A stretch of DNA of 64,000 bases. Origin: Candidatus Flexifilum affinis. GTDB taxonomy: Bacteria > Chloroflexota > Anaerolineae > Aggregatilineales > Phototrophicaceae. The notes beneath the pieces are model-generated. The model searched no databases. It had not been told where the DNA came from and was given only the letters and a program-made list of their open reading frames with translations. A program made the translations under genes and the position numbers. Below are positions 1 through 49,800 of this stretch, piece by piece. Position 1 is the stretch's first letter. Each line of letters opens with the position of its first letter. Where the stretch lies: the NCBI GenBank assembly GCA_016713325.1, contig JADJPJ010000093.1, forward strand, positions 62,001 to 126,000. The letters are read 5' to 3'.

Positions 1-1635
1 AAGGACGACATTCTGGCCGACTTTGCCCTGGGCGAAGACCTGCGTATGGTCACCTTCCCCGGCGAAGAGGCGCCTCGCCCCTTCACCGAGGATGATATCG
101 TCCTGGCCATCGGCGCCGGCCGCTATGCCCAGCGCTATGTCTACGAAGTGGACACCCGCGAGTACGCCGTCTTCCCCGCCGAGTGGGACACCGTCACCGG
201 CGAATGGCGCCCCTACCGGCTGGCCGACTCCTGGCCGGCCCCTGAGTATGATTTCACCCAGAACTGCGCCGGCTGCCACACCACCGGCCTGGAACTGGAA
301 CGCGGGCGCTGGCAGGATGAGGGCGTGCAGTGCGAAGCCTGCCACGGCCCCGGCGGCGAACATGCCGAAGTCGCCGACGACGCCGGCAGCCGACCGAACG
401 ACGAGGAGCGCGCCGAAATTCACGCCGCCATCGTCATGTCGCCCGACGCGCAGATCTGCGGGCAGTGCCACGTCCAGGGCTCGACGCCCGATCTCAGCCA
501 CACCTTCCCGGTCAACTACTTGCCCGGCGGCGACATGCTCGATGCGGAAGTCTTCCAGATTCCCGAGCGCGACGACCCGGCCACCTTCTATGAAACCGGG
601 CACGGCCGGCTGAACAACATGCAGTTCAACGAGTGGTTTGCGTCAGCCCACTCGCGCTCGCTGGAGACGCTGCTCGAAAGCCCGAATGCCGAAGACGGCT
701 GCCTGACCTGCCACAGTGGCGACACCACCTTCATTCAGCGCATTCTCGGCGTCTACGAAGACGGCGATCTGGAAGGCACGCCACCCGAACTGCCGACCCT
801 CTCCACGGCGCAGTTCGGCGTCACCTGCACCACCTGCCACAGCCCGCATGAGGCCGCCGAGGTCGACTTCCACCTGGTCTCCGAGCCGGACGACCTGTGC
901 GCTGCCTGCCACCAGAACACCGAGCTCATCCAGCCGATCCATCACCCGTCAATGGAGATGTTCCAGGGTCAGACGATGATCGACGGCATCGAAGGGGTTG
1001 CGTCGGCCCACTTCGCCGATGAAAACGGCCCTGGCTGCGTCGACTGTCACATGTCCGGCATGCCGGTGGGCAGCGCGTCGCTGGCCAGCCACCGCTTCCG
1101 ACCGGTCATCCCCGGCGAAGTCGAGGACAGCCCACCCGACGCTTGTAGCGAATGCCACACCGATCTGACCACCGCCGACCTGCAGTCGCTGGTCCTGGAC
1201 ACCCAGACCTCCGTGCGCGGCCGGCTGACCGTAGCCCTTGCCCGCCTGGGGAGCATCACGCCGCCGGAAGAAGGCAGTGATGCCGGCGCTCAGTTCGAAC
1301 GAGTACGCGCCGCGCTGACCTTCATCCAGAACGACGGCAGCCTGGGCGTCCACAACTACCCCTATGTCGACAAGCTGCTGGACAGCGTCTCGACCGATCT
1401 GGCGCAGCTCAGTGTGCCCGGCGCGCTGCTGCAACCGACCGAGGGTCCAGCGCCGACGGCGACTCCGTCGCAGGCCATGCCTATCCCGGTTGGCGTCGAA
1501 TCGCATGTGCGCTCCGGCGCCCGGCCGATGACCCTGATCATCATCGCGATAACCGTCCTGATCTTGCTGCTCGGGACAGCACTGATTTTGCGGCAGGCTC
1601 GGCGGCGGATGCCAGAGCAGGAGGCGGCGCGATGA
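1..1635 (+). CDS. Multiheme c-type cytochrome, membrane-anchored (5' end outside window)
   Basis: The frame is open from base 1, so the gene starts upstream; the first internal ATG at 46 is not the start, because the residues before it match the paralogue at 13690-15306. The visible 544 residues carry eight CXXCH haem sites, several in the cytochrome c554-like context of a CHTTG site followed by CEACHGPG. The paralogue has one more N-terminal site, so nine haems are expected. Unlike that paralogue, this copy ends in a hydrophobic segment (about residues 512-533) followed by Arg residues, which would anchor it outside the membrane. It overlaps the next cytochrome gene by 4 bp (ATGA), implying a translationally coupled respiratory operon. 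The electron donor and acceptor cannot be read from the sequence. Confidence 0.88.
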   Translation, partial: KDDILADFALGEDLRMVTFPGEEAPRPFTEDDIVLAIGAGRYAQRYVYEVDTREYAVFPAEWDTVTGEWRPYRLADSWPAPEYDFTQNCAGCHTTGLELERGRWQDEGVQCEACHGPGGEHAEVADDAGSRPNDEERAEIHAAIVMSPDAQICGQCHVQGSTPDLSHTFPVNYLPGGDMLDAEVFQIPERDDPATFYETGHGRLNNMQFNEWFASAHSRSLETLLESPNAEDGCLTCHSGDTTFIQRILGVYEDGDLEGTPPELPTLSTAQFGVTCTTCHSPHEAAEVDFHLVSEPDDLCAACHQNTELIQPIHHPSMEMFQGQTMIDGIEGVASAHFADENGPGCVDCHMSGMPVGSASLASHRFRPVIPGEVEDSPPDACSECHTDLTTADLQSLVLDTQTSVRGRLTVALARLGSITPPEEGSDAGAQFERVRAALTFIQNDGSLGVHNYPYVDKLLDSVSTDLAQLSVPGALLQPTEGPAPTATPSQAMPIPVGVESHVRSGARPMTLIIIAITVLILLLGTALILRQARRRMPEQEAAR

Positions 1636-2849
1636 TGCCCAAACGACAACGACTGCGAACGATGCTGGGGATTGCCGGGATCCTGTGCCTGCTGATGGGT
1701 GTGTTCGTCAGCCTGACTTTCGCCCAGGATGCGGCGCCAGAAGCGACCGCCGAACAGACGGCCGACTCCGCCAGTTCCAGCGCACCGGTCGCCCCGGAAG
1801 CCACGCCCGAGACGGGAGAGGCGGAAGTCGACGAATCGTCCGACGCCTACTGTCTGCTCTGCCACACCAAGCCCGATCAGGTCTGGAACCTGCCGGGCGG
1901 CGAATCGCTCTCGGTGACCATCGACCCGTCGATCCTGGCCGGCTCGGTGCATGGGGCGGCCAGTTCGGAAGGGCCGCTGGCCTGCGCCGAATGCCACCCG
2001 AACTTCCGCTACCCCCACCCGCTCTCGCTGAGCCAGACGGTGCGCGATTTCCAGGTCGAACGCTACGCCATCTGTCGCGACTGCCATGAGGAACAGTACA
2101 CGCGGGCGCAGGACAGCGTCCATGGCGCGTTTCTGCGCGCCGGCCATCTGGAAGCGGCCACCTGCGTCGACTGCCACGGCGGCCATGACATCCAGACGCC
2201 GGACGAACCGCGCCAGCGCATTTCGCTGACCTGCGGCAACTGCCACGGCGTGATCTTCGAGACCTATCGCACCAGCATCCACGGTTCGGCGCTTATGGGC
2301 GAGAACAATGCCGACGTGCCGACCTGCATCGACTGCCACGGCGTCCATGACATCGGCGACCCGACCAGCGCGTCGTTCCGGGTCTCATCGCCCGAACTGT
2401 GCGCCACCTGCCACGCCGACGCCGAGCTGATGGACAAGTACGACATCAACACCCACGTTTTCGACAGCTACCTGACCGAGTTCCACGGTACGACGGTGGC
2501 CCTCTTCAATGCTGAAGAGCCGGAGCGCGCGACCAACAAGGCCGTCTGCTTCGACTGCCACGGTGTGCATAACATCCAGGCCGTCGACAGCGAAGCAGGC
2601 ACCTCCAGCATCCGTGAAAATCTGCTGACCACCTGCCGCCAGTGCCACCCCGACGCCGGCGCCGACTTCGACTCGGCCTGGATCGGCCATTACCCGGCGA
2701 CGGCGGACACGCACCCGGTCTTCTTCACCGTGAACCGTCTGTATGATGTGCTCATCCCGGCCGCTTTCGGACTCGTCGCCATCGTTATGGGCACGGACCT
2801 GTTCCGCCGCGTTCGCCGGTGGCTCAGCCCCAGGAAGAGGAGCGACTAA
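1632..2849 (+). CDS. Nonaheme c-type cytochrome with C-terminal membrane anchor
   Basis: A 405-residue exported protein: basic N-terminus, hydrophobic segment and an LTFAQ-type signal cleavage site, then an acidic Ala/Glu-rich linker. Nine CXXCH motifs follow, several as CxDCHG-H-DI units typical of cytochrome c3/octahaem-like proteins, with SVHG/SIHG segments that could supply distal His ligands. A transmembrane helix near residues 370-390 ends in an Arg/Lys-rich tail. The start overlaps the previous stop codon; ATGATG allows initiation at 1632 or 1635. It is similar in layout to the protein at 15311-16516. Its position between another multihaem cytochrome and a cytochrome b suggests it passes electrons between the quinone pool and periplasmic partners (inference). 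Confidence 0.9.
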   Translation: MMPKRQRLRTMLGIAGILCLLMGVFVSLTFAQDAAPEATAEQTADSASSSAPVAPEATPETGEAEVDESSDAYCLLCHTKPDQVWNLPGGESLSVTIDPSILAGSVHGAASSEGPLACAECHPNFRYPHPLSLSQTVRDFQVERYAICRDCHEEQYTRAQDSVHGAFLRAGHLEAATCVDCHGGHDIQTPDEPRQRISLTCGNCHGVIFETYRTSIHGSALMGENNADVPTCIDCHGVHDIGDPTSASFRVSSPELCATCHADAELMDKYDINTHVFDSYLTEFHGTTVALFNAEEPERATNKAVCFDCHGVHNIQAVDSEAGTSSIRENLLTTCRQCHPDAGADFDSAWIGHYPATADTHPVFFTVNRLYDVLIPAAFGLVAIVMGTDLFRRVRRWLSPRKRSD

Positions 2850-2851
2850 GC

Positions 2852-3934
2852 ATGGCTGCACGCACAGGGTCTGTAAAGACGGCGCCTGCAACGACAGGGG
2901 CTGAGACTAAAGCTGTGGAGCCGCGCGGTCGAGTCCGGCTCTCTGCCGGCCAGCAGATCGAGCGATTGGTCGTCACCGTCGCGCTGATCGGCCTGGCGCT
3001 GACCGGCCTGGCCCAGCATTACGCCGCGGAGCCGTGGGGGCGTGTGCTGCTCGTCCTGGGTGGCGGCGTCGAGAGCATACGCATCCTGCACCGCTTCTTC
3101 GCCGTCCTGTTCATTGTCGAAGCCGTCTATCACGTCCTGGCGGTGGCCTACCGGGCCTTCGTTCTGGGACGCTCCTGGGTCATGCTGCCCCGCCTGCGCG
3201 ACTTCGCCGATCTGGTCCGGCAGGTGGCGATCAACCTCGGCATCCGACGCGGCCAGGCCACGTCGAACTACCGCTTCGCCCTCAAGATCGAATACATAGT
3301 GCTGGTCATCGGCGCGATCATCCTGATCCTCACCGGCCTGGCGCTCTGGAACCCGATCGCCGTGACCAGCGCGCTGCCCGGCGAGACCATCCCGATCGCC
3401 CGCAGCCTGCACGCCGACCATGCCCTGTTCACCATCGTAGCCCTGGTCATGCTGCGCCTGGGCATCGTGCTGCTCTGGCATCCCAGCCGCGCCGCCCTCT
3501 TCGCAGAGAGCGAGGCGGCAGCCAAACCGGCCCCGCAGGGCCGGCGGAACACCTTCCTCGTCGTGGCGGCAGTCCTCGCCGTGATCGTCGCGGGCGGGTT
3601 GTATCTCTTCCTGAGTGGCGAGCAGACGGCCATCACCACCGTGCCGCGCCAGGAGGCGATCATCTTCGCGCCGGACGCCATGCCCGAGAGCGGCGACGCG
3701 CATATCGGCGAGGTGCTGTGGAACACCACGCGCTGCGCCTTCTGCCACGGCGCCGACGGTCTGGGCGGCGCCAAGCAGGAACCGGCCGTCCGCGGGCGCG
3801 CCGATCTGACCTTCGAGGCCTTCGTGGAGCAGGTGCGCATCGGCCGCGGCGATATGCCCTCCTTCACCCATGAAGAACTGCCCGACGGCTATCTGGTCCA
3901 CCTCTGGGCCTGGGTCCAGGAGCCGGCGAGCTAA
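2852..3934 (+). CDS. Cytochrome b561/FdhG-like membrane protein fused to cytochrome c
   Basis: Start chosen at ATG 2852, just after the upstream TAA and behind GAAGAGGAGC, rather than the in-frame codon at 2819 inside the previous gene. The N-terminal part (about residues 30-230) has four hydrophobic helices with spaced His residues (LHRFF, VYHVL, LHADHA, LLWHPS), as in dihaem cytochrome b subunits of formate dehydrogenase or Ni-Fe hydrogenase. A fifth helix (about 240-262) leads to a C-terminal class I cytochrome c domain with one CAFCH site and a likely Met ligand in DMPSF. The fusion would take electrons from quinol at the b haems and deliver them to its own c haem and to the two multihaem proteins of the operon. 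Direction of flow is inferred. Confidence 0.85.
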   Translation: MAARTGSVKTAPATTGAETKAVEPRGRVRLSAGQQIERLVVTVALIGLALTGLAQHYAAEPWGRVLLVLGGGVESIRILHRFFAVLFIVEAVYHVLAVAYRAFVLGRSWVMLPRLRDFADLVRQVAINLGIRRGQATSNYRFALKIEYIVLVIGAIILILTGLALWNPIAVTSALPGETIPIARSLHADHALFTIVALVMLRLGIVLLWHPSRAALFAESEAAAKPAPQGRRNTFLVVAAVLAVIVAGGLYLFLSGEQTAITTVPRQEAIIFAPDAMPESGDAHIGEVLWNTTRCAFCHGADGLGGAKQEPAVRGRADLTFEAFVEQVRIGRGDMPSFTHEELPDGYLVHLWAWVQEPAS

Positions 3935-3962
3935 TCCACGCAGCTGCATTCAACGTGACGCG

Positions 3963-3993
3963 AACGCTCACTCCGGACGGGGTGGGCGTTTTT
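3963..3993 (+). terminator. Rho-independent terminator of the first cytochrome operon
   Basis: A 9-bp stem (3963-3971 with 3982-3990, one G-T pair) and a 10-base loop are followed by a run of five T that begins at the end of the stem. It lies 29 bp after the stop of the cytochrome b/c fusion. Confidence 0.75.
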
Positions 3994-4103
3994 GTTGGTC
4001 AGCGGCTCTTGCGTTCCTTTTCCAGACCCCTTCATCTGTAGTGTAGACGCGGCAGACAAGCTCGATAGCGAATGGGCAGGTCAGCGCCAGCCGACGCTCT
4101 GCC

Positions 4104-4688
4104 TCAAGCGCCGGCCGAGAGTAGAAGGCTCTCCTGCAATACCCCGCGCCGGATGCGGTGGAAGTACGCCGCCATTTGTTCCGGGGTATACACGATGTGC
4201 TTTTCTATCCACCACATCATGAGGTCGATCTCGGATACAGCCAGAACCGTCGCGACGACATCAACCGGGACCTTGAACCGAAGGCCAGAAAATGTGACCT
4301 GCAGGTGCACTGCAATGTGTTGGGCGCTGTCATCACGCTGTTGACGAAAAATAACATCGGAGTCTTTGCCGAAATATACCATCCTCAGTTGATCGAGGGT
4401 GGCCCAGTGATGGGCATAGACAGCGACCATCCGCTCAGGCGGATCCTCAGCGAGCAGCTCGGCACGTGTGAGCGGTGGACCGGCGATACGAGCCACTTCC
4501 GCCCGATGGGCATGGTGATAAAGATCCTCTTTGCTCCTGTAATGGAGGTAGAAGGTCGTACGGCCCACACCAGCCCGATCGGTAACGTCCTGGATCGTGA
4601 CGAGATCGTAGTCACGCGACTGAAGTAGTTCCAGCAGAGCTTTCTGCAGCAGTTCACGGGTGCGACGCACCCGCCTGTCCTCATCCAT
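4104..4688 (-). CDS. TetR family transcriptional regulator
   Basis: 194 residues. The N-terminal 60 residues form a TetR DNA-binding domain: RRTRELLQKALLELL helix 1, then the helix-turn-helix around residues 31-50 with the TTFYLHYRSKEDL signature. The C-terminal region is a helical ligand-binding domain of the kind found in the TetR C-terminal 7/33 groups; its ligand is unknown. It is divergent from the membrane-protein gene at 4807, with two inverted repeats in the 118-bp gap, so it most likely represses that neighbour and itself. No strong ribosome-binding site precedes ATG 4688, but the start fits family length. Confidence 0.88.
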   Translation of the reverse strand: MDEDRRVRRTRELLQKALLELLQSRDYDLVTIQDVTDRAGVGRTTFYLHYRSKEDLYHHAHRAEVARIAGPPLTRAELLAEDPPERMVAVYAHHWATLDQLRMVYFGKDSDVIFRQQRDDSAQHIAVHLQVTFSGLRFKVPVDVVATVLAVSEIDLMMWWIEKHIVYTPEQMAAYFHRIRRGVLQESLLLSAGA

Positions 4689-4691
4689 GGC

Positions 4692-4715
4692 TGAACACTT
4701 CGCTCTTCTTGTTCA
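4692..4715. promoter_or_regulatory. Inverted repeat TGAACA-N12-TGTTCA upstream of tetR-like gene
   Basis: Perfect 6-bp arms at 4692-4697 and 4710-4715, ending 4 bp outside the start of the TetR gene. A candidate autoregulatory site; its arms differ from the palindrome at 4760, so they may bind different proteins. Confidence 0.35.
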
Positions 4716-4759
4716 CTATCAGACAAACCTGCCGCCGTGTTTATTGGAGTCCAAAGCGC

Positions 4760-4780
4760 TCAGACTTATTGTAAGACTGA
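4760..4780. promoter_or_regulatory. Candidate TetR operator palindrome
   Basis: A 21-bp sequence centred on 4770 with 8 of 10 base pairs symmetric (TCAGaCTTA / TAAGaCTGA). It is placed between the divergent TetR and membrane-protein genes. Size, position and symmetry fit a TetR-dimer operator; binding is inferred. Confidence 0.5.
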
Positions 4781-4806
4781 CGTTGCGTTCAGAAAGGTAG
4801 TTCACG

Positions 4807-5490
4807 ATGACCGTTGTACAGACCCGGATACTGGCACCTCAAACCACCACCCAAAAAACCGCTCCCAAGGGGCGCCTGTGGACCGGCCTTGCCCTGATTG
4901 TGTTTCCGATTCTATCCGTTTTCATCTATGCATCGCACCCCAACCTATTGAGTCTGCAGCCGGTCCACGGGGTGGATGACTGGATTGCAGAGTGGCATGG
5001 CAACACGCTGCTTCATATCTCTCACGTCCTGATGCTGCTGTGCGTGCCTCTGCTGATCGCGATCAGTGTCGAGTTGATGACGATGCTGCGTGCGAAGGGT
5101 CGGCGCTACGGCTTCGCCGGCGGGATACTCGCAGTGGTCGGGGCGACCTTTCTGGCAGCGGACAAAGGGGCGCTGTGTCTGGTGACCAGCGCACTCGATA
5201 CCCTGTCGGCAGCAGAATTCGAGCAGATCTACCCGGCCATTGTCGCCATCAAAGGGATGCAGGGCTGGCTGTGGCTCGTCTACGGGCTGGTACTTCTGCC
5301 GATCGGTTTCGTCATCATGGGACTTGGCCTCTACCGCACTGCCATCCTCCCGCGATGGCAGTCTGGGCTGCTCATCGTCGGTTCGGCACTCCTGCTCAAC
5401 CCGGATATCGAGCTCATCAGCGTTGTCGCCTCGTGTCTGCTGGCGGCAGCCCTGGTGCCACTGGGCGTGCAGCGTATTCGTAAGGCGTAG
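4807..5490 (+). CDS. Six-helix integral membrane protein of unknown function
   Basis: 227 residues with about six hydrophobic segments (roughly 25-43, 66-88, 100-120, 150-175, 180-200, 203-220), and no signal-peptide cleavage site or catalytic motif that I recognise. AAAGG lies upstream of ATG 4807. The divergent TetR gene and the palindrome at 4760 suggest this is the regulated target, so its substrate may be the regulator's ligand. It could be a small stress-response membrane protein (DUF4386-like proteins have a similar layout), but I cannot assign a family with confidence. Confidence 0.7.
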   Translation: MTVVQTRILAPQTTTQKTAPKGRLWTGLALIVFPILSVFIYASHPNLLSLQPVHGVDDWIAEWHGNTLLHISHVLMLLCVPLLIAISVELMTMLRAKGRRYGFAGGILAVVGATFLAADKGALCLVTSALDTLSAAEFEQIYPAIVAIKGMQGWLWLVYGLVLLPIGFVIMGLGLYRTAILPRWQSGLLIVGSALLLNPDIELISVVASCLLAAALVPLGVQRIRKA

Positions 5491-17508: not shown

Positions 17509-18600
17509 TCACACGAACAGACGCAGGACGTCGAAGTCTTTCTTCAGTACCTCGCGCTGGCTTGACTGATACAGCACCACGGCCGGGTGATACATCGGCA
17601 CGACGTGAATCTGCCCGTAGGGAAGCTGCGCATCGAGCATTTTGCCGTGCAGCGCGCTGATCGACAGCCCCTTCTCCGGCAGGTCCAGCTTCTTCAGCAG
17701 GTACTGCGCGGCGAAGCGGCCCAGCGGCACGATCACCTTTGGCTCGATGATGGCGATCAGGCGATCGACATAAGGCGCATAGAAGGCGATCTCCTCCGGC
17801 AGTGGGGCGCGCTTCTCCGGCGGGTTGTCGAGCAGCAGATTGGTGATGTAGACCGACTCCCGTTTGAGCCCGATCCCGGCCAGCAGTTCGTTCAGGACCT
17901 CGCCGGACGGCCCGATGAAGACCCGCCCGTCGGCGGCCTCGTACTTCCCCGGCGCCTCGCCAATGAACAGAATGCCCGCATCGGCGCTGCCATCCCCCAG
18001 CACGGGAAACAGCTTGTGGGCCACGCGGTGCGCATAGAGCGGCGACTCCGTCGCATTGATCAGCTCGGCATGCAGCGTCTTGAGCCGGGCCACCTTTTGA
18101 TCCACCACCCGCTTCTCGCTCTTGGGCTTGACCGGGCGCGCGGTCAGGTTGGCGCGGATCACGCCGATCAATCCTTCGACTTCCTGGGCGAAGCGGCTAT
18201 GGCTCAGTTCGATGGCGTTGCGCCGCGACAGCGGGATAACATCGTCGGGCAGGTCGGTCGGCGCGGGCATCCTCGCTCCGCCCACCAGCACCGGGATCAC
18301 GCGCTTGCTGGCGCGCAGGGCCGAGGCCACTTCGATGCGGACGAAGTCGTTCCACTGATGCAAGCGGCGCTCGCCGGCGTCGTCGGGGATGCCCGCCCAG
18401 CGCGGTCCTATGACCACCAGACAGACATCGCAGGCCGTGACAGCCCTTTCCAGAGCGTCGACAAAGTCGGCGCCTGGTTCGATGCTGGCGACATCCATGA
18501 AAATGTCTTCGGGGCGGAAGTGTTTGAGCAAATGATCGTACAGGCGGCCAACATGCCCTTCGCTGTCCTGCCGCCGGTACGAGATGAAGATGCGGGTCAT
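17509..18600 (-). CDS. TIR domain fused to a family 4-type uracil-DNA glycosylase fold lacking Fe-S cysteines
   Basis: 363 residues. Residues 1-150 are a TIR domain (RIFISYRRQD opening, SIEPGADF BB-loop, candidate catalytic Glu90 in FVRIEVASAL). Residues about 165-363 follow the type-4/5 uracil-DNA glycosylase pattern: GEAPG at 214-218 with Glu221, ITN at 252-254, PP at 260-261, PKVIVPLGRFAAQYLL and the MYHPAVVL motif (338-340 HPA). The family's four Fe-S cysteines are absent: no CxxC precedes motif 1, the usual KCRPP reads LDNPP, and the Cys before PYL is Tyr274. The only Cys are 57 and 60, in the TIR domain. Probably a nucleic-acid sensor or glycosylase coupled to NAD cleavage or signalling (inference). 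It follows a response-regulator gene by 36 bp on the same strand. Confidence 0.85.
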   Translation of the reverse strand: MTRIFISYRRQDSEGHVGRLYDHLLKHFRPEDIFMDVASIEPGADFVDALERAVTACDVCLVVIGPRWAGIPDDAGERRLHQWNDFVRIEVASALRASKRVIPVLVGGARMPAPTDLPDDVIPLSRRNAIELSHSRFAQEVEGLIGVIRANLTARPVKPKSEKRVVDQKVARLKTLHAELINATESPLYAHRVAHKLFPVLGDGSADAGILFIGEAPGKYEAADGRVFIGPSGEVLNELLAGIGLKRESVYITNLLLDNPPEKRAPLPEEIAFYAPYVDRLIAIIEPKVIVPLGRFAAQYLLKKLDLPEKGLSISALHGKMLDAQLPYGQIHVVPMYHPAVVLYQSSQREVLKKDFDVLRLFV

Positions 18601-18636: not shown

Positions 18637-19143
18637 TTACCGGCGCGAGCGCTTGACCGGCTTGAAGGTCCGCTTCACGGCTGGAGCGTGTGTCGCGGGC
18701 GCCATCTGGGCCGAGGTCGCTGCGGTTGTGGGCGATGGGGGCGTCACGACGCTCAGTTTATTGAACAGTATTTGCAGTTCGTCGGGCGTAGGGAGAGGCT
18801 TGTAGATGATGATATTGGCGCGCGACCGGGCCAGCATCGCTTTTTCGTCCACCGGGTTCAGACGGTAAGCGGTCATGAGAATGATCGGGATCTGCCCCAT
18901 GAGCGGGCTCTGGCGAATGCGTTCGCTCACCTGATCGCCCTGGATGGAACCGGGCAGACGCACGTCAATCAGGGCAAAGTCGGGGCGATGCCCTTGTATC
19001 CGGCTAAAGTCCAGATCGTCAACCCAGTGAACCGCCTCCTCGCCATTGAGAAAGGCCACGCCCTCATGGGTCAGCGCCTCGGTCATGAGCAGAAGCAGCT
19101 CGTAAAGATCAGGCTCATCTTCAACTATCATCCAGGTGGACAT
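18637..19143 (-). CDS. Stand-alone response regulator receiver protein with basic tail
   Basis: 168 residues. A CheY-like receiver occupies residues 1-125: acidic Glu8/Asp9, phospho-acceptor Asp60 (LIDVRLP), Thr91 (MTAYR) and Lys115 (YKPLP). There is no output domain; instead a Pro/Ala/Thr-rich segment ends in a strongly basic tail (KRTFKPVKRSRR) that could contact nucleic acid or a partner. It lies directly upstream of the TIR-UDG gene on the same strand, so the two are probably co-transcribed. No histidine kinase is next to it. Confidence 0.85.
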   Translation of the reverse strand: MSTWMIVEDEPDLYELLLLMTEALTHEGVAFLNGEEAVHWVDDLDFSRIQGHRPDFALIDVRLPGSIQGDQVSERIRQSPLMGQIPIILMTAYRLNPVDEKAMLARSRANIIIYKPLPTPDELQILFNKLSVVTPPSPTTAATSAQMAPATHAPAVKRTFKPVKRSRR

Positions 19144-21352: not shown

Positions 21353-21868
21353 GTGGCAAGCGCAGCACAGACCCTGTCGACCATCGAGCATAACTCGGGA
21401 CACATGGACACAAAGCTGAGCATACAGGGATCTCTCTTCTTAAGCTATCGCAGCAGCGAAGCGGATTTCGCCCTGCGCCTGGCTGTCGACCTGAAAAATG
21501 CGGGCATCGCGGTGTGGATGGATCGTTACGATCTGCGCCTGGGCGAAAACTGGGTGATGGGAATCCAGACGGCGGTCGACAACTGCACAGGCATGATCTG
21601 CATTGTTAGCCAGGATTACGTCGAATCGCGCTATACCCGCCGCGAGCTGACCCGCGCCATGCAGCGCGGCATCACCCTGCTGCCCCTGTTGATTCAAGAT
21701 GTCCCCGATGACCACTGGCCCTTTGAACTCCAGAGCATCCAATATACCGATTTCCGTCACTGGCGCGACTCGGCGGTCTACGATCGCCAGTTTGCCAGCC
21801 TGCTGGACCAGCTCCATAACGACCCTATACCGTCGGCGCGGTGCCCAACTCCGAGGCCCGTTACCTGA
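21353..21868 (+). CDS. TIR domain, N-terminal part of a TIR-NACHT-HEAT protein (frameshifted)
   Basis: GTG start at 21353 close behind AAAGGA; ATG 21404 is an alternative that still leaves the domain whole. Residues about 25-150 form a TIR domain (SLFLSYRSSEADFAL, WMDRYDLRLGENW, candidate catalytic Glu98 in YTRRELTRAM). The frame ends after NDP with an out-of-frame tail. The adjacent frame, entered after NDP, reads YTVGAVPNSEARYL and continues into the NACHT protein. A one-base deletion near 21815-21835 therefore probably separates one TIR-NACHT-HEAT gene into two frames. Confidence 0.8.
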   Translation: MASAAQTLSTIEHNSGHMDTKLSIQGSLFLSYRSSEADFALRLAVDLKNAGIAVWMDRYDLRLGENWVMGIQTAVDNCTGMICIVSQDYVESRYTRRELTRAMQRGITLLPLLIQDVPDDHWPFELQSIQYTDFRHWRDSAVYDRQFASLLDQLHNDPIPSARCPTPRPVT

Positions 21869-24800
21869 ACTGCCTGGTCGCCGAACTGGAAATGCGCAAA
21901 GGCGTCATGGAGCAGTTCGACACCTTCCACCTGGGTGATGGCAAAGCGGCCGATCCATCTCTGGAAACCGCCGGCTTCCTCGATCATTGGTCGGAAAACA
22001 CGCCCTTTGCGCTGGTCGACGAGCACAGCGAGATCGTCATCTATCCCCATTCATACGAAGTCACCGACCCCAACGCGCTGCACGGCATCGACGCCGTCTT
22101 CGCCCGCTACCCGCAGTTCGTGATCGTCGGCGCGGCCGGCGCCGGCAAAACGATGACCCTGGTCTCGCTGGCCCTCAAGGCCGCCCACGAGCGCCAGGCG
22201 GCCCCGGACAAGAAACCGCTGCCTTTCTTCGTCAAGCTCGCCACCTGGAAAGACCACATCAGCGTCGAGGAGTTCTTCGCTTCCCGCTGGACGCTCGGCG
22301 GCGACGTCATCGAGCGCATGCGACGGGGTGAGGTCATCCTGTTCTGCGATGGTCTTAACGAAATGCACGACGAAGATGGCACTAAAATAACATTACTGCG
22401 CGCCTGGTTGCAAAGCGACCGCGCGCCCCGTCGCGCCATCTTCACCTGCCGCGATACCCTGTACAACGAAATTGAACTGGGACTGCCCGGCGTGCAGCCC
22501 TATGCGCTCAGCAGCGAGCGCATCCGCACCCACGTGCTCAGCGCTCTGGGCAAAGTCAGCGGGAACGCCCTGCTCAAACGGATCATCCCGGCGGGCAAGC
22601 CCTCCTCGAATCAGGATGAGGGATCGCGCCAGTTGTACCGCATGGCCCGCAACCCCTTCTTCCTGAGCGCGCTCATGCTCATCCATGAAAACGCGCCGGA
22701 GGGCGAACTTCCGCGCAACATGGGAGCGCTCGCAGCCCGCCTTGTGGATGTACTCTGGGAGCGGGCGTGCAGCCGGGGTATTCCGGGCGATCTGTCGTAT
22801 GAGGCGCTGCGGCGCAGCCTGGAGCCGCTGGCCTTCGATCTGGCGCTCGACGGCGAACAGGTCTATATGCCGGTTGGCCGGGCCCTGTTCCACCTGGGCA
22901 ACGCTGAGGTGCTGCGAGTGGCGATCGATGCCGGCCTGCTGGAGCGAGATAACGGCTCGGTCCGTTTTCGACATCAGTTGGTCCAGGACTATTTCGCGGC
23001 GCACGAGTTGGATCGCCAGGGTCTGGAGTTGTATCTGAAACCGCCGAACACCGACAGCCAGGGCGCGCGGATTCCCAGCCATTGGGATCGCGTCGTGGTG
23101 GCCATGGTCGGCTGCAACGGCCGGTCCGACGAGTTGGTGCGCCGCGTGCTGCACATCGACGCTGAGCTGGCCGCAAGCTGCCTGGCAAGCGGGATCAGCG
23201 TTCGCGACGACACGCGCGCCGAGGTCATCGTCACCCTGGCCAACCAGGTTGCGCTCAATGGGCGCGGGCTGATCTACGCGGCCCAGTCGCTGGTCAGCTT
23301 CGAGCCGGAGGCGGCGCTGCCTCTGCTCTTCAATGCCATGCGCGGCGGTGAGATGGTCTCCCGTCATGAGGCAGCGCTGATGCTCCGCTCGCTGCGACTG
23401 CCGGTGCGGCGCTCCCTGGTCCGCGCGCTCGATCAGCGGACACCGACCAACAGCATGGCGATCGCCTCGTACATTCGCAAGATGGGCGAGACCGCTCTGC
23501 CGACCCTGCTGATCCTGCTGCGCCACTCCCACTGGTACGCGCGGCGCAGCGCGGCCTGGGCGCTGGGCGAACTGCGCGACCCGGCCGCCCTCCCCGATCT
23601 GATCGAAGCGCTGGGCGACCACCGCAGCGAGGTCGGAGCGGAAGCGGCGGAAGCGATCGGACTGATTGGCGATGCGACGGGTCTCGAAGCGCTCTACATG
23701 CTGGCGCGCGTACAGACCGGTCTGGGCAGGCGTTCGCGCCTGGGACGAGCGGCGGTAATCGGACTGGTTCATCTGGGGCAATCTGCTCTACCATACCTGG
23801 TGAAACTCATGGGGTCGGACAGCAGTCCGGAAGCCCGCAGGCTGGTAGGGCTCTTCTGGCGGGAGATCGATTCAGAAGATGCGCTGCCAGAACTGCTCGC
23901 TCTGAGCTACCATGAGGACCTGGAGGTACGCGCCGCGGCGCTCGAGGCGCTGGGGGCATTCACCGAGGACATGAGAGCTGTGAAACGACTCATCGATGCA
24001 CTGAATGATTTTGCCATCGTGAAGCGGCTGAGACGGCGCGTGAGCGATATCGCCGCGGAGAAGCTGGAAGACTCCGGCGTGAACTCGGCGAAGCGGGCTG
24101 CCAGGCGTTTCCGCGATGGACAGGCCGCGACTGAGCAGAACAGGCTCAGCGCCGGCAGCGCGGGGCGGGTCAAGGACCGTTTGAGGCAGGATGCTCAGGA
24201 ACGTGAGCCGGCCTTCGCGGTGATGGCCGCCGGCCCGGTTCCGATCGATCATGGCGAGCCCGACTTCCTGAAGAAAGGACTGGATGCGCCCATGGCCTCT
24301 TCCTCGAAATCGACGTCCACAGGGGCGGTCGCGTCGACGTCTTCGACTGCGTCATCCACGGCCCCGGCCACATCGCCGATCAGTCGGTTGATCGCTTCCC
24401 TCGACGATGCCGACGAGCAGGTCAGGCTCAACGCCATCAAGGCGCTAGCCCGAACGCCCGGCGACGCCGCGATCAGTGCGTTGGTCAAGGCTCTCGGCGA
24501 CTTTGAAGCCGTGGTGGCTGATGCCGCCGTCGAGGCGCTGACCGCCCATGGCACCGCGGTGATCCCGGCCGTGCGCGGCGCCGTCCGTGACGAAAGCCTC
24601 AATCGGCGCGCGGGCGCCCTGGAAGTGCTCTGCCGCATCCAGGCCGTCGCCGCCCTGCCGGAGCTGATCGCCGCCCTCGACGACACCCGCCGCCCCTGGC
24701 TGGGCGACCGGCGCATCTGTGACCTGGCCGCCGCGGCGCTGGAACGCATCGGCACCGACGAAGCGCTGCGGGCCGTCGAAATGTGGCGCGCCAGGCAGCA

Positions 24801-25683
24801 CACCACCCCCCAGAGTGGCGCGTCGGATGCGGCGCAGGATGGCGCGGACAAGGATCAAACGCTCGCCGACCGACGCAACGACCCGGCGCGCTACCCGGAG
24901 ATCATCGCCGAGATGCTCGCCGCCATGCGCACCGAAGACTGGGGCGTGCGCGAGGAAACCGCCAAGGATCTGCGCGAGTTCGCCCGCATCAAGCTGCGCG
25001 GCGCGCATGACCCGGCGCTGATCGACCCGCTGACGGCGGTGCTGATCGACCCGGATTGGGTGATGCGCTGGTCGGTCGTCGAGGCGCTGGCCTGGGTCGG
25101 CGATCCGGGCGTCGTGCCCAAGCTGCTGACCCGTCTGGAAGACGAAAACTGGATGGTCCGCGCGGCTGCAATCCGCGCCATTCAGGAGATCGGCGACCGG
25201 GGCGCAGCCGCCCGTCTGGCGGAATTGCTGGAAGATAAGAATTCGTCGGTGCGCGAAGCGGCCGCGGAAGCCCTGGGCAAACTGGGCGACCAGGCGGCCA
25301 TCCCTTCGCTCACGCTGGCGGCGCTGGAAAGCGAACCCCTGGTGCGCTTCTCCGCCGTCGAGGCGCTGCTCCGCATCGGTGGCGATGCCGTCGTCGTCCC
25401 GATCAGCAACGCGCTCAATGATGAACAAGCAATCATCCGGTTCCGCGCCGTGCAGGCGCTCGACGAACTGGCTGATCCGCGCGCTATCCCGGATCTGATC
25501 AAGCGCCTGGAGGACGAGGCCGTCCCCCAGTGGCAGGATCGCCGGGTGTGCGACGTGGCTGCTGAAGCGCTCAAGCGATTCGATGCTCCTGAAGCGCAGA
25601 ACGCACTTGAGGCCTGGCAGACGCGCCAGGAAGCCGCCGCAGCCCTCGAATCCGCAAACGACGCTCAGCACAAGCGAGAATAA
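21841..25683 (+). CDS. NACHT NTPase with long HEAT-repeat arrays
   Basis: 1280 residues in the open frame. A STAND/NACHT domain shows Walker A GAAGAGKT (97-104), Walker B VILFCDGLNEM (Asp170) and sensor FTCRD (201-205), followed by winged-helix-like sequence with RFRHQLVQDYFAAHEL near 375-390. Two blocks of HEAT repeats (about 470-790 and 850-1270, PBS-lyase type, e.g. WMVRAAAIRAIQEIGD) are joined by a Ser/Thr-rich linker near 830-860. The predicted GTG start has no ribosome-binding site and overlaps the TIR frame by 28 bp. Translation therefore most likely enters from the TIR reading frame. By family analogy it is an NTP-driven switch whose HEAT arrays sense a trigger and whose TIR acts as effector (inference). 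The TIR-FGE gene starts 4 bp after its stop. Confidence 0.88.
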   Translation: MPNSEARYLNCLVAELEMRKGVMEQFDTFHLGDGKAADPSLETAGFLDHWSENTPFALVDEHSEIVIYPHSYEVTDPNALHGIDAVFARYPQFVIVGAAGAGKTMTLVSLALKAAHERQAAPDKKPLPFFVKLATWKDHISVEEFFASRWTLGGDVIERMRRGEVILFCDGLNEMHDEDGTKITLLRAWLQSDRAPRRAIFTCRDTLYNEIELGLPGVQPYALSSERIRTHVLSALGKVSGNALLKRIIPAGKPSSNQDEGSRQLYRMARNPFFLSALMLIHENAPEGELPRNMGALAARLVDVLWERACSRGIPGDLSYEALRRSLEPLAFDLALDGEQVYMPVGRALFHLGNAEVLRVAIDAGLLERDNGSVRFRHQLVQDYFAAHELDRQGLELYLKPPNTDSQGARIPSHWDRVVVAMVGCNGRSDELVRRVLHIDAELAASCLASGISVRDDTRAEVIVTLANQVALNGRGLIYAAQSLVSFEPEAALPLLFNAMRGGEMVSRHEAALMLRSLRLPVRRSLVRALDQRTPTNSMAIASYIRKMGETALPTLLILLRHSHWYARRSAAWALGELRDPAALPDLIEALGDHRSEVGAEAAEAIGLIGDATGLEALYMLARVQTGLGRRSRLGRAAVIGLVHLGQSALPYLVKLMGSDSSPEARRLVGLFWREIDSEDALPELLALSYHEDLEVRAAALEALGAFTEDMRAVKRLIDALNDFAIVKRLRRRVSDIAAEKLEDSGVNSAKRAARRFRDGQAATEQNRLSAGSAGRVKDRLRQDAQEREPAFAVMAAGPVPIDHGEPDFLKKGLDAPMASSSKSTSTGAVASTSSTASSTAPATSPISRLIASLDDADEQVRLNAIKALARTPGDAAISALVKALGDFEAVVADAAVEALTAHGTAVIPAVRGAVRDESLNRRAGALEVLCRIQAVAALPELIAALDDTRRPWLGDRRICDLAAAALERIGTDEALRAVEMWRARQHTTPQSGASDAAQDGADKDQTLADRRNDPARYPEIIAEMLAAMRTEDWGVREETAKDLREFARIKLRGAHDPALIDPLTAVLIDPDWVMRWSVVEALAWVGDPGVVPKLLTRLEDENWMVRAAAIRAIQEIGDRGAAARLAELLEDKNSSVREAAAEALGKLGDQAAIPSLTLAALESEPLVRFSAVEALLRIGGDAVVVPISNALNDEQAIIRFRAVQALDELADPRAIPDLIKRLEDEAVPQWQDRRVCDVAAEALKRFDAPEAQNALEAWQTRQEAAAALESANDAQHKRE

Positions 25684-25687
25684 TGCC

Positions 25688-27451
25688 ATGCGCCTATTCA
25701 TAAGCTACGCCCGTCTTGACAAACCTTATTGCATTCAGATCAGCAACCTGCTTACCGCGCATGAAGTCTGGTTCGACCAGCGCTTCTACGTCGGCGATCG
25801 GTGGTGGGACGAGATCCTGCGGCGGCTGGAATGGTGCGAAGGCTTCATCTACCTTCTATCCCCGGCCTCCGTCGCCTCGACCTACTGCCAGCAGGAATTC
25901 GACCTGGCGGTCCAGCTTCAGCGCAATGTTTTCCCGCTGCTGATTCACGATCAGACCAGCGTGCCGGAGAGCGTGCTCCAGTACCAGTACGTCGACCTGT
26001 CCAACGGCCTGACGCCAGAGACGACCGCCCACATCCTCAACTCCATCACCAATGTCGAGCGCAACAGCCGCAGCCAGCAGATGCAGCTCGACTCAATGCC
26101 GCGCTCACAGGTCGAACTCCCCGTCTTCAACAGCGCCTCGGTGATCAGCGTGGCCGCGGCGGCCATGGAAAAGGGCCAGTTCGATCAGGCGGTGTTCCTC
26201 TTCAAGCAGGCCAAGGCCAAGGGCTTCACCTCGCGCTTCATCAACATTGATAAGCTGCTGAAGGAAGCCGAGCGCCAGCTCGAAGACCAGGCCAAGAAGT
26301 TGCAGCGCGACATCGACTACCGGCAGATCACCTCGCTCATCCGCGTCAAGACCACGCGGGACATGGGCTGCGAGGCGCTGGGCGAGTTCCTCAAGGAATA
26401 CCCCGGATATGACCCGGAGAGCATGATGCAGGCGTGCGCGGGGGTCACCCCGGCCGTCCACAACTCCATGCCGACGATCGCCTCCGAGGCCGTTGGCGCC
26501 CGCATCGACACGCACGCTGCGTCGCAGATCGTCTCTCCCAGGGCGCCGACGGCGCCCAAGTCGTCGATGAGTCAGGTTCTGGCGCCGCCGACCGCTCCGA
26601 CGACCCTTCCAGGCACGAATGGAACCGTCACAACGGGAACAATCACGATTGCTCCCGTCGTGGCGCCATCCACACCAACGGGATTCACACTCCCCCTGCT
26701 CGACTTCGTGTCGATCCCGGCCGGTAATGTCCATTTCGAAGATGTCGACAGCAGCGGCATCCGTTCGCAGCTCATGGCTTCGGTGCCGGCCTTCCACATC
26801 ACCCGCTTCCCGGTGACCAACAAGCAGTTCCAGGCCTTCCTGGAGGACCCGGACGGCTATGCCTCGCCCCGCTGGTGGGGCTTCTCGGCCGAGGCGGCCC
26901 TGTGGCGCGCCGAGCGGCCGAACCCCCAGGCCGGCAAGTTCGAAGGCGACGACCGCCCGCGCGATACCGTGGCCTGGTTCGACGCCATGGCCTTCTGCAA
27001 CTGGCTAAGCGCCAGGATGCAGGAAGACCTCTGTCTGCCGACCAGCGAGCAGTGGTTCCGCGCCGCCCGCGGCGACAGCCAGCGCATCTATCCCTGGGGC
27101 GACACCTTCGATCCCGATTACTGCAACGTCAAGGAATGCGAACTCAAGATGACCACGCCCGTGACGCGCTACACCAAGGGCGTCAGTCTGTTCGGCGTGT
27201 GGGACATGGCCGGCAACATTTGGGAGTGGACCGTCAGCGCCAAAATTGGACCGGCCGGCGCCAACGGGAACGGCAATGGCAGCGGCAGCGAAGCCGCCCA
27301 TTTCGACGTCTCCGGCTATGCGCCGCGTGCGGTTCACGGTGGCGCCTATCACAGCGAGGCCGAACGGGCGCGCATCCCCTTCCGCTACTACCTCAATCCC
27401 CGTATCTCCCACAACAGCATCGGCTTCCGTATCGTGAAGCGTGGAAAATAA
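25688..27451 (+). CDS. TIR domain fused to a non-catalytic FGE-sulfatase/C-lectin fold domain
   Basis: 587 residues from ATG 25688, 4 bp after the NACHT-HEAT stop. A TIR domain (1-130; LFISYARLDK, candidate catalytic Glu70 in YCQQEFDLA) is followed by a helical, TPR-like stretch (about 155-215), a Pro/Thr-rich linker and a formylglycine-generating-enzyme-like domain from about 370 (PVTNKQFQAFL, YPWGD, AGNIWEWT, GFRIVK). The catalytic cysteines of true FGE are not present: the C-terminal part reads PFRYYLNPR with no Cys. It is more likely a C-type-lectin-fold recognition module, as in conflict-system and DGR target proteins. It probably works together with the upstream TIR-NACHT-HEAT protein. 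Confidence 0.87.
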   Translation: MRLFISYARLDKPYCIQISNLLTAHEVWFDQRFYVGDRWWDEILRRLEWCEGFIYLLSPASVASTYCQQEFDLAVQLQRNVFPLLIHDQTSVPESVLQYQYVDLSNGLTPETTAHILNSITNVERNSRSQQMQLDSMPRSQVELPVFNSASVISVAAAAMEKGQFDQAVFLFKQAKAKGFTSRFINIDKLLKEAERQLEDQAKKLQRDIDYRQITSLIRVKTTRDMGCEALGEFLKEYPGYDPESMMQACAGVTPAVHNSMPTIASEAVGARIDTHAASQIVSPRAPTAPKSSMSQVLAPPTAPTTLPGTNGTVTTGTITIAPVVAPSTPTGFTLPLLDFVSIPAGNVHFEDVDSSGIRSQLMASVPAFHITRFPVTNKQFQAFLEDPDGYASPRWWGFSAEAALWRAERPNPQAGKFEGDDRPRDTVAWFDAMAFCNWLSARMQEDLCLPTSEQWFRAARGDSQRIYPWGDTFDPDYCNVKECELKMTTPVTRYTKGVSLFGVWDMAGNIWEWTVSAKIGPAGANGNGNGSGSEAAHFDVSGYAPRAVHGGAYHSEAERARIPFRYYLNPRISHNSIGFRIVKRGK

Positions 27452-46841: not shown

Positions 46842-49800
46842 CTAGTCCAGATCCGCCAGCAGCGCGGCGATGAGGGTGTCGGCGTTCATCTCGCGACCGC
46901 GGGCGAGCGCAGCATCCAGATCCCCGCCGTTCATCCGCGCACGCAGATCGCCAAGGAGCGCCTCGATGGCAAGTCGTTCCACAGCGGAAACACGCTGAGC
47001 GAGGAGCAGACCGATCAGTTCCCCCAGCCGCGCGTCCTTTGCATCGGCAAGCAGAATCGGGGCAAGTTCGATGAGCGTCTCCACCTTCAGCCGGGCGGTC
47101 CCCTTGGTTTGCAGGGTTTGCAGCGCTTCGCGCATCAGCGCATGAATGTCGTCCTGCGATCGCTCCAGAAGGCGCTGCGCACAGGCCAGGCCGGCCAGCA
47201 CGCGAGGCAGTTGCCGGTCGTCCTGGCGGCGGAAGATGGCCAGCGCCTCAGACAGGCGCTGTTCAGCCTCGCCGGCGTTTCCATTCGCCAGATCCAGCCG
47301 GGCCAGGCAGGCCAGCGACCGCGCGATACTGGGCTCTTTGTTGATCTCGCGACTCAGAGTCAACGCTTCGTCGGCGAGCGCACGCGCCGCAGCAGTATCC
47401 CCCAGTGCCTGAAGGATGGGCGCCTGAGTGAGGAGACCGTCGGCGATCTCCGCCTGCAACCCAATCTGCCGGTAGATCGTCAACCCCTGGGACAAGTAGT
47501 CCTGGGCCTGCACAAAATCATCCTGATAAAGGGCGAGTTCCCCCAGATAGGCGAGTGAAGTGGCCATGCCCCAGCGCTCGTTAATGTCACGCTGAATCTG
47601 CAAGCACTCTTCGAAGTACCGCCGCGAATCGTCAACCTCGTTCAAATCGTAGGCAAGATATCCGATGATCGCCAGCGAGTTGGCGATCCCTTTGCGGTCG
47701 CCGATCTCACGCCGCGTCTGCAAGCTGTCTTCTGCGTAGCGAATGGCCAGGTCCACATTGCCCTGACGGTGTTCCAGGATGGCCATGTTCCCCAGGGTCG
47801 CCGCCGACGCAGGGCGATTGCCGGTCTCGCGCCGCAGTGCCAGACACTCGTGCCAGTACAGGCGCGCCGTCTGATAATCTCCTTCCTCCATCGCCGTCAC
47901 GCCCAGGTTGTGCAGCGCGGCGGACATTCCCGTGCGAGAGCCGAGTTCACGACTCACCGCCAGGCACTCCTGGAGGTAGGTGCGGGCTGTGGCGTAGTCG
48001 CCCCGGATGCTGGCAACGGCGCCCATTTTGCTGAGCGCAGTGACCAGGCCATTACGCGCATCGCGGGTCCGATAAAGCACCATGCTGTCTGTAAAGTGGC
48101 TGAGGGCCGTCTCGTAGTCGCCTTGATTGAACGCCGTCTCGCCCAGATTGACCAAGGCAATGGCTGCGCCGAGATCATCCTGCTGGCCCCGCGCGACCGT
48201 CAGGGCCTGGGTGAGGAATTCGGCTGCTTGCGCGTAACTGCCCTGACGGAGCTGAAGTGATCCCAGACCGTTCAGGGCACGGCTGCGCTGTTGTGCGTCC
48301 TCCCCCACAATCGCGAGGCAGGCATCGTAGTGTGCCTGCGCCTCCGGGTAGTGTCCCTGTGCAGCGGCCGCATCTCCCAGCAGGCGCAGCAAGCCGGCGC
48401 GCCGCTGCACTTCACCCATTTCCAGCGCCCGCCGGAGCAGCGCTTCAGCGCGCACGAAATCCGCCGTCATCTCGACCATACGCTCGCAGACCGGCATCGT
48501 GTAATCGATGATTTTGTCCGGCACCCCGGCTCCCTGCCAGTGATCCAGCAGCGCGTCGTACTGTGCGGTGTCGTCCGGGTAGAGCGACTCAATCGTCTCG
48601 GCAGCGAGGCGGTGCAGCGATTTCAGGCGTTCATGCACCTGCATCTGGTAGGCGGCATCGCGCAGCAGCGCGTGGCGGAACAGGTAGCGCAGCGCATCCA
48701 GCGCCGACCAGATGGCTTCGCCCTCGGCCGCCTGAATATAGGTCTGCGTATTCTCCCTCAGCATCCGCGAGAGCACCTGCACGTCAAATTCGCGCCCCAG
48801 CACCGCCGCGGTCTGCACCACGGCCTTCACCTGCACAGCCAATCGATCCAAACGCGCGATCAGGACCGAGTTGACGCCCGAGGGCACTTCTGCCTCAATG
48901 GCCGGCCGGATATCCCAGACCGCGTCTGTCTGGCTCAAGGCACCGCGTTCTTTCAGATCCAGCGCAAGCTGCTCGATGAAGAACGGATTACCCTCTGCGC
49001 GGTCACGCACCAACCGCGCCAGTCCATCAGTCACCGCGCCGCCCAGCACCGCCTCGGCCACGGCCTGGCCGCCCTGGTCGGTCAGCCGATTCAGATCGAG
49101 AGTGTGAACGGGGACGCCGAAAACCGCAGGAATGCTGTACGGCGTGGCATCGTCGTTGTAGCGGCTGGTCAGCAGCAGCGCGACGGGGATGGTGTCCATG
49201 TTGTAGGTCAACTGCTGTATTGCCCGGATGGAGATAGCGTCCAGCCACTGAGCGTCCTCCAGGTGGATGACCAGCGGCCGGCGGCGGCTCTCGGCGCGGG
49301 CCCAGGCCTTGATCGCGGCAATGCCGCTGTCGATTCGGGTCCGCTCGTCGGCGCTTGCATACGGTGAATCAGGGATGACGAGCCCCAGGATGCCCGCCAG
49401 ATACGAGCGATAAAGCGTCAGATCGGCCCGGTTGGCTTCATCCGAAAGTTCCAGCTGTCCCTCGAAAACGTCATCAAAGGCCTGCCGGTTGAACTGAACG
49501 TCGCCTTCACGACGCTGTCCGAAGTACGGGCGCAGGAAGTAGCGGAAGGCGCTCAACGGCGCGCGGTTGAGCTGATCGGTCTGCCCGGTGAGCCAGGTGA
49601 CGGGCGCATCCGCTTGCAATCGCGTCTGGGCTTCGAAGGCCAGGCGGCTCTTGCCCATGCCCGGCTCGCCGTACACGTAAATCAGGCCGGCGTGCCGCCC
49701 CTCCAGGATGGGCTGGAGAGCGGCGCGCACCGACTCCAGTTCGCCTTCGCGCCCCACCAGCGGCGTGGTGTAGAAGCGCGCCTCGAACGTCCGCTCATTC

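Follow-up and report, generated by a model that had tools for sequence, protein, structure and literature searches.

Background

TIR effectors occur with many different sensors, and SARM1 is gated by its ARM/SAM domains. Apart from the candidate presented here, we know of no TIR domain that would be gated by a DNA base lesion. The preliminary description of the present locus, in which a TIR domain is fused to a uracil-DNA glycosylase (UDG), stated that it knew of no described TIR-UDG effector. This agrees with searches of the open-licence PMC literature, where among the papers listed we found neither such an effector nor any TIR domain with a DNA-repair glycosylase as sensor, and the available excerpts of a review on additional domains of DNA glycosylases do not mention TIR (PMC9266487).

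In the family 4 enzyme Tth UDG the uracil pocket is made up of Glu41, Gly42, Glu47, Phe54, Asn80 and His155, with a proposed role for Asn89 in positioning the water that attacks (PMC5387724, in excerpt). The same excerpt reports k2/Km down 888-fold for E41Q and k2 down by more than three orders for H155S; N89A is still active, with k2/Km reduced to roughly a seventh of wild type, k2 being lowered about 6-fold (text) or 9-fold (table) and Km not raised. An Asn80-Lys83 pair is described in PMC10776899 (in excerpt), according to which K94A in UdgX, a change at the site equivalent to Lys83, yields an unfolded protein without activity. The UdgX variant H109K, with Lys at the covalent site, gains ordinary UDG activity (PMC10359453, in excerpt), and the title of Kawai 2015 links Tyr170 of St UDG to DNA binding. 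The UDG fold is also already known as an antiphage enzyme in Brig1. Compared by description, Brig1 is like the present fusion in that its top structural matches are UDGs, the best being St UDG4, and unlike it in that it works by base excision and is often found in defence islands; the available excerpts of that paper mention TIR once, within the reference list (PMC11078745).

Our best reading of the fusion, held tentatively at a little less than an even chance, is a chromosomally inherited, core DNA-lesion sensor with a TIR effector. A working repair enzyme and a sensor of phage DNA are the main rival readings, and both are possible.

Structure of the fusion gene

The window, that is the whole 64,000 nt stretch of DNA analysed, holds the fusion with the following features:

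17509..18600, minus strand: TIR-UDG fusion gene, 363 aa, single open frame
18151..18600, minus strand: TIR domain, residues 1-150
18331..18333, minus strand: Glu90 codon, aligned with SARM1 Glu642 (number from the full-length chain)
18037..18150, minus strand: linker and helix, residues 151-188 (in the model, pLDDT 68 in 151-160 and a helix at 163-181)
17512..18036, minus strand: cluster-less UDG family-4-type domain, residues 189-363
17839..17841, minus strand: Asn254, corresponding to Tth Asn80, which hydrogen-bonds uracil (PMC5387724, in excerpt); present in 152/152 fusions
17827..17832, minus strand: Leu257-Asp258, replacing family-4 Lys83-Cys84 (alignment and row counts)
17812..17814, minus strand: Lys263, replacing the family-4 Asn89 proposed to position water (PMC5387724, in excerpt; Tth alignment and counts)
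17779..17781, minus strand: Tyr274, replacing the fourth cluster Cys; Tyr in 152/152 fusions
17587..17589, minus strand: His338, corresponding to Tth His155, in the HPA motif; present in 150/150 distinct fusions with a residue there

The single frame joining TIR and UDG domains, as proposed in the preliminary description, is borne out by the open reading frame and by the Pfam matches, TIR_2 at residues 4-143 with 51.4 bits (cut-off 28) and UDG at residues 202-348 with 96.9 bits (cut-off 24.3). Glu90 and the motifs GEAPG (214-218), PP (260-261) and HPA (338-340) are all present as claimed. The four cluster ligands are likewise replaced, by Ala183, Ser186, Asp258 and Tyr274, and the window fusion thus does not have the four Cys of family 4. 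Besides the Pfam UDG match, the UDG part scores above the cut-off of the family 4 model TIGR00758 UDG_fam4 (164 bits, cut-off 125.3); the narrower family-4 model NF040953 gives 163.9, below its cut-off of 250. The structure model of the window protein resembles a UDG in one half and a TIR fold in the other.

The fusion resembles UdgX, a UDG4-derived uracil-DNA binder, in its altered motif 3. Unlike UdgX it has no R-loop (the stretch from Asn254 to Arg264, where that loop would lie, carries no insertion), no motif-A Gln (GEAPG, not GEQPG) and no His nucleophile, and the UdgX model TIGR03914 was not reached (79.1 against 189.95). The solved structures found by sequence for the TIR half are all TIR domains of the SARM1 NAD hydrolase, and the top fold matches of its structure model are likewise SARM1 TIRs. 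At the SARM1 642 position all 152 distinct fusions have Glu. Unlike SARM1, the fusion has a DNA-base-binding fold in what would be the sensor's place. Other TIR proteins, with 45-53% identity to the TIR of the fusion, were found in both the class and the order sample.

Distribution and phylogeny

The protein database contains the window protein and at least 119 other fusions, with 60-78% identity and 99-100% query coverage among the best 120 of 4388 matches; the named organisms in this list are Anaerolineae, Anaerolineaceae or Chloroflexi. The fusion was found in full length in 3/298 genomes of the class sample, and in full or partial form in 39/151 genomes of the order sample, four of which gave partial matches only (G009, G424, G358 and G344). 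In the phylum sample, which was scored solely for similarity to the window's own fusion, it was present in 2/400 genomes, both also within the order sample, and independent TIR-UDG fusions may have arisen elsewhere. A missed gene boundary, named in the preliminary description among the things that could undo the claim, is rejected given the many database fusions that align over almost the whole query and the 39 genomes of one order that carry the same fusion.

Each of the 39 genomes has one copy of the fusion. Four of these copies are fragments (L009, L090, L093 and L126), and in L093 (G344) the TIR start lies in a different frame from the remaining fusion, as a broken copy or an assembly error. 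Merging of identical cores reduced 159 fusions to the 152 distinct ones counted throughout, with the window row placed in the database group.

The same order also holds a free-standing cluster-less UDG of about 205 aa, with 40-53% identity to the UDG half. In the order sample, where the count takes in cluster-less proteins up to E 1e-40 and misses weaker ones, the fusion occurs in 39 genomes and the free-standing form in 51. Both occur together in three genomes (G353, G028 and G376), against 13.2 expected if they were independent and kinship is ignored, and 64 of the 151 genomes have neither.

A maximum-likelihood tree was built on 94 UDG parts. The fusions form one clade (support 100/100), and the cluster-less group is split from the canonical enzymes with equal support (100/100). 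The best tree nests the fusions within the free-standing group, on a branch that is not starred (90/89). Most simply, the cluster would have been lost first and the TIR domain then gained once. As the nesting rests on that unstarred branch, TIR could alternatively have been lost in the free-standing line.

Fe-S ligand positions, uracil pocket and motif 3

The 28 canonical UDG4 rows, some of them archaeal or other outgroups, have Cys at the four ligand positions in 28, 28, 22 and 28 rows, the third position being Cys in 22, His in 5 and Ser in 1. The 26 free-standing rows, a subset of the 51 genomes with that form, have Leu (24/26), Ser (25/26), Asp (26/26) and Tyr (26/26), and the fusions have Ala (150/152), Ser (149/152), Asp (152/152) and Tyr (152/152). 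Two weak rows without CxxC (the second ORF of L015, and L016) were excluded from all groups. The free-standing proteins are the closest kin of the fusion by the tree and have the same Ser, Asp and Tyr in place of Cys. The loss of the Fe-S cysteines, put forward in the preliminary description, is real in the fusion but not specific to it, and we rejected it as a hallmark because the free-standing kin share the same loss in both alignment and tree. Five of the 28 canonical rows (L010, L020-L022 and L025) read KHRPP, with His instead of Cys as third ligand, and a 3Cys-1His cluster is possible in these.

For the pocket we used Tth numbering by pairwise alignment, in which the Tth position equals the window position minus 174, to about residue 275. 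Glu47, Phe54 and Asn80 are invariant in 152/152 distinct fusions, and His155 is found in every fusion with a residue at that position. Glu41 is replaced by Gln in 10/152; the window fusion has all five of the residues Glu41, Glu47, Phe54, Asn80 and His155. Lys83 is lost in 152/152 fusions and Asn89 in 125/152, mostly to Lys, while the motif-3 loop varies in length and is gapped in 16/152. In the window these two residues are Leu257 and Lys263, the latter a replacement of the motif-3 Asn that the preliminary description did not record. The free-standing kin, which have no TIR domain, keep Lys83 in 25/26 rows, Asn89 in 25/26 and both in 24/26. Compared with family 4 UDG (Tth 1ui0, St 4zbx, TM0511), the fusion is without Fe-S ligands, has lost Lys83, mostly has Lys for Asn89, and has an N-terminal TIR domain. 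As judged from the aligned rows, the change linked to the fusion is in motif 3 and not the Fe-S loss.

The invariant pocket residues together with the loss of Lys83 and Asn89 suggest that the fused form has preserved the pocket and relaxed the support for chemistry; from the pocket residues, uracil would be the candidate ligand. Excision of uracil by the fusion is presumably weak or absent. Loss of Asn89 does not in itself prove this, because Tth N89A turns over; nor is excision loss proven for the fusions as a whole, because 21 of the 27/152 that retain Asn89 retain Glu41 too, and because UdgX H109K gains activity. A further residue, Tyr344, aligns with St UDG Tyr170 and is Tyr in 118/120 database rows and in 36/37 genome rows with a residue there, which makes a DNA contact by the UDG half likelier. 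We also considered whether Lys263 might trap abasic DNA covalently, and set this aside, as UdgX H109K acquires ordinary excision and the Lys is not universal.

The canonical enzyme in fusion genomes

By canonical-type UDG4 we mean a further family-4 match starting at model position 1, where the matches of the Cys-bearing enzymes also begin. Such a match is present in 34/39 fusion genomes versus 7/48 genomes with the free-standing form only (Fisher p 4e-12, kinship ignored), and its Cys were seen directly in 8 of the 34 (L018-L025). In 41 of the 48 free-standing-only genomes the free-standing form is the only family-4 match. Five fusion genomes have no canonical-type match. One of them, G353, is a single contig of 5.6 Mb and holds both the fused and the free-standing form; for G008, G423, G424 and G411 contig numbers of 341-1028 point to fragmented assemblies. 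Weaker UDG-superfamily matches were found in 6/10 genomes examined. Most simply, the free-standing form would be a functional UDG able to stand in for the Fe-S enzyme, whereas the fused form would have arisen in genomes in which that enzyme still carried out repair, hence the copy was free to change.

In pairwise comparisons within one set of eight genomes (28 pairs), the TIR half, the UDG half and the canonical UDG4 have mean identities of 0.696, 0.703 and 0.700. Divergence of the one half goes with that of the other, with a Spearman coefficient of 0.82 for the 28 pairs and 0.64 for the 780 pairs of all fusions. Between the UDG half and the canonical UDG4 no correlation of identity was found over the 28 pairs (Spearman 0.16, p 0.43), hence these data do not establish strictly vertical descent of the two. 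For an arms-race gene we would not expect two halves that diverge equally and only moderately.

These data bear on the first rival, that the fusion acts in base excision repair as a second, functional UDG, in which the TIR domain serves assembly or recruitment or a repair-linked use of NAD+, and in which losing Lys83 and Asn89 does no more than tune the rate. This reading is consistent with the conserved uracil contacts and His155, with the only mild impairment of Tth N89A, with the repair-like conservation, with the linkage to a repair gene described below, and with the five fusion genomes that have no canonical-type match. On the other hand, a canonical-type UDG4 accompanies the fusion in 34 of 39 genomes, Lys83 is absent from all fusions in a loop of varying length, the equivalent K94A change in UdgX gives an inactive and unfolded protein, and the invariant Glu90 goes beyond the need of a scaffold. 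We hold this reading to be rather unlikely, and keep that of a lesion sensor with a TIR effector as the preferred one.

Gene neighbourhood

BLAST clustering was used to compare the neighbourhoods of 35 fusion and 14 free-standing loci, each cluster name resting on one or two scanned members. No universal neighbour or operon partner was found across the 35 fusion loci. The most recurrent neighbour of steady identity is the alkylation-repair gene tag, which encodes a 3-methyladenine glycosylase (PF03352, two members scanned), which was found at 8/35 fusion and 0/14 free-standing loci. The tag family occurs in 29/39 fusion genomes and lies within 6 kb on the same contig in 8 of them, where about 0.08 would be expected by chance if kinship is ignored, and the tag-linked genomes are spread over several parts of the fusion clade. 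In G372, G009, G426 and G028 the tag domain starts no more than 50 nt downstream of the fusion on the same strand. At the other 27/35 loci tag was not found in the flanking stretches compared, many of which are short. AlkD-like neighbours (cluster 36, 3 loci) were dropped, as the one member scanned gave a weak Pfam match of 22 bits.

Next to the fusion in the window lies one further gene:

18637..19143, minus strand: single-domain response regulator, PF00072, upstream of the fusion

The pairing with this regulator, pointed out in the preliminary description, is seen in the window and its two closest relatives (L001 and L002), where the regulator adjoins the fusion on the same strand, but it is not general: with 3/35 loci, and Response_reg in 5/122 nearest neighbours, we rejected it as a general partner. 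Two-component kinases or regulators occur more widely, at varying distance and strand, in the flanks of 14/35 fusion versus 2/14 free-standing loci. Such flanks would fit another reading, in which TIR is an inactive protein-protein module, Glu90 is structural and the UDG half is a DNA binder linked to transcription or replication. For many bacterial TIR domains no enzymatic activity has been demonstrated, which also counts in its favour. The Glu found at position 90 in every distinct fusion, and the SARM1 TIRs that make up both the solved sequence relatives found and the top fold matches, argue against it, and we regard it as improbable.

The remaining neighbours are a PMT_2-like protein near 6/35 fusion and 0/14 free-standing loci, an unscanned cluster near 4/35 and 2/14, a WD40-kinase cluster near 3/35 and 3/14, and smaller clusters in five loci or fewer each. 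Neighbour scans covered 122 of 127 listed genes, two nearest on each side and excluding those above 900 aa. In the Pfam tally of these 122, of which 25 of 146 families are listed, Response_reg was found 5 times, glutamine synthetase and PMT_2 4 times each, Adenine_glyco 3 times, and Uma2, a putative restriction endonuclease, twice.

Within the window, a TIR ORF (21353-21868) overlaps a NACHT-HEAT ORF (21841-25683), and at 25583-27451 a TIR domain is fused to a formylglycine-generating-enzyme-like (FGE) domain. In L001 a single ORF (1049-5344, minus strand) clusters with both the TIR and the NACHT-HEAT ORF of the window. Further along, 46842-51098 encodes a 1418-aa protein with guanylate-cyclase, AAA and TPR domains.

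Mobility and phage defence

The preliminary description placed the fusion in defence, with the glycosylase fold sensing modified or phage DNA. The rival reading that follows is an anti-phage sensor, in which the UDG half would recognise phage DNA that is modified or rich in uracil, and the TIR domain would respond by triggering abortive infection. Evidence in its favour is found in the PADLOC scan, where the TIR half gave partial matches to ThsB1 (6.6e-12, residues 3-68) and SAVED_TIR (0.006), and in Brig1, whose best structural match is a UDG4 (PMC11078745, in excerpt). The TIR similarity to Thoeris ThsB/ThcB spans only the first part of the fusion's TIR, and the ThsB/ThcB model NF058526 was not reached (42.6 bits, cut-off 220). 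As to the distance to defence genes, the TIR, NACHT-HEAT and TIR-FGE genes of the window lie 3-9 kb from the fusion, and relatives of the NACHT-HEAT gene are also near it in L001 and L002, but defence-like matches are few among the nearest neighbours: no listed PADLOC family exceeds 2 of 122 (25 of 28 families; raw counts without a background rate).

Among the records with a match, 0/59 phage and 0/88 plasmid records cover 80% of the fusion, and when viral contigs were scanned once with two peptide patterns, no relative turned up. Further, the fusion is present in single copy per genome, it and its free-standing kin avoid each other, and both halves show repair-like conservation. The genomic context points away from a mobile defence gene, and phage defence as the general setting is not supported, given the single copy, the lack of phage and plasmid carriage among those records, the conservation and the tag neighbour. 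We consider the anti-phage reading unlikely, more so than that of a second repair enzyme.

Possible function of the fusion

We return to the reading of a lesion sensor with a TIR effector. In a lineage retaining the canonical Fe-S enzyme for repair, an extra cluster-less copy would have acquired an N-terminal TIR domain. The fused copy would then have lost the motif-3 residues that support excision, Lys83 always and Asn89 mostly, with the uracil contacts staying in place. The UDG half may flip and hold uracil in DNA, or else a related lesion or the abasic product, and clustering or a conformational change would unite the TIR domains, which could use Glu90 to consume NAD+ or to produce an ADP-ribose signal. 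Cells whose DNA is badly damaged might arrest or die as a result, or the signal might instead serve to adjust repair. The findings suggest that a TIR-UDG fusion could link damaged DNA bases to a cell-wide alarm. The sensor with an NAD-consuming effector envisaged in the preliminary description is plausible given the kept base pocket, but phage defence is not supported as its general setting.

Further, we speculate that the fusion might be a bacterial counterpart of the eukaryotic damage-to-NAD axis, a core gene in which a retired glycosylase, retained solely to read bases, switches on a SARM1-like TIR, leading from uracil and abasic sites in the cell's own DNA to NAD+ consumption; this is somewhat unlikely. 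If true, it would be a case of a TIR domain gated by a DNA base lesion, and an example of how a repair enzyme can become a sensor for death or alarm.

The series from Fe-S repair enzyme to cluster-less enzyme to cluster-less reader with TIR would allow each step by which an enzyme became a sensor to be tested on individual proteins. The isolation of Phototrophicus methaneseepsis is reported in PMC8941918. The middle member of the series is represented by the free-standing cluster-less loci L038-L047, L049, L094-L100 and L127-L140, in which the catalytic motifs are kept, and a naturally Fe-S-free UDG4 may merit separate study.
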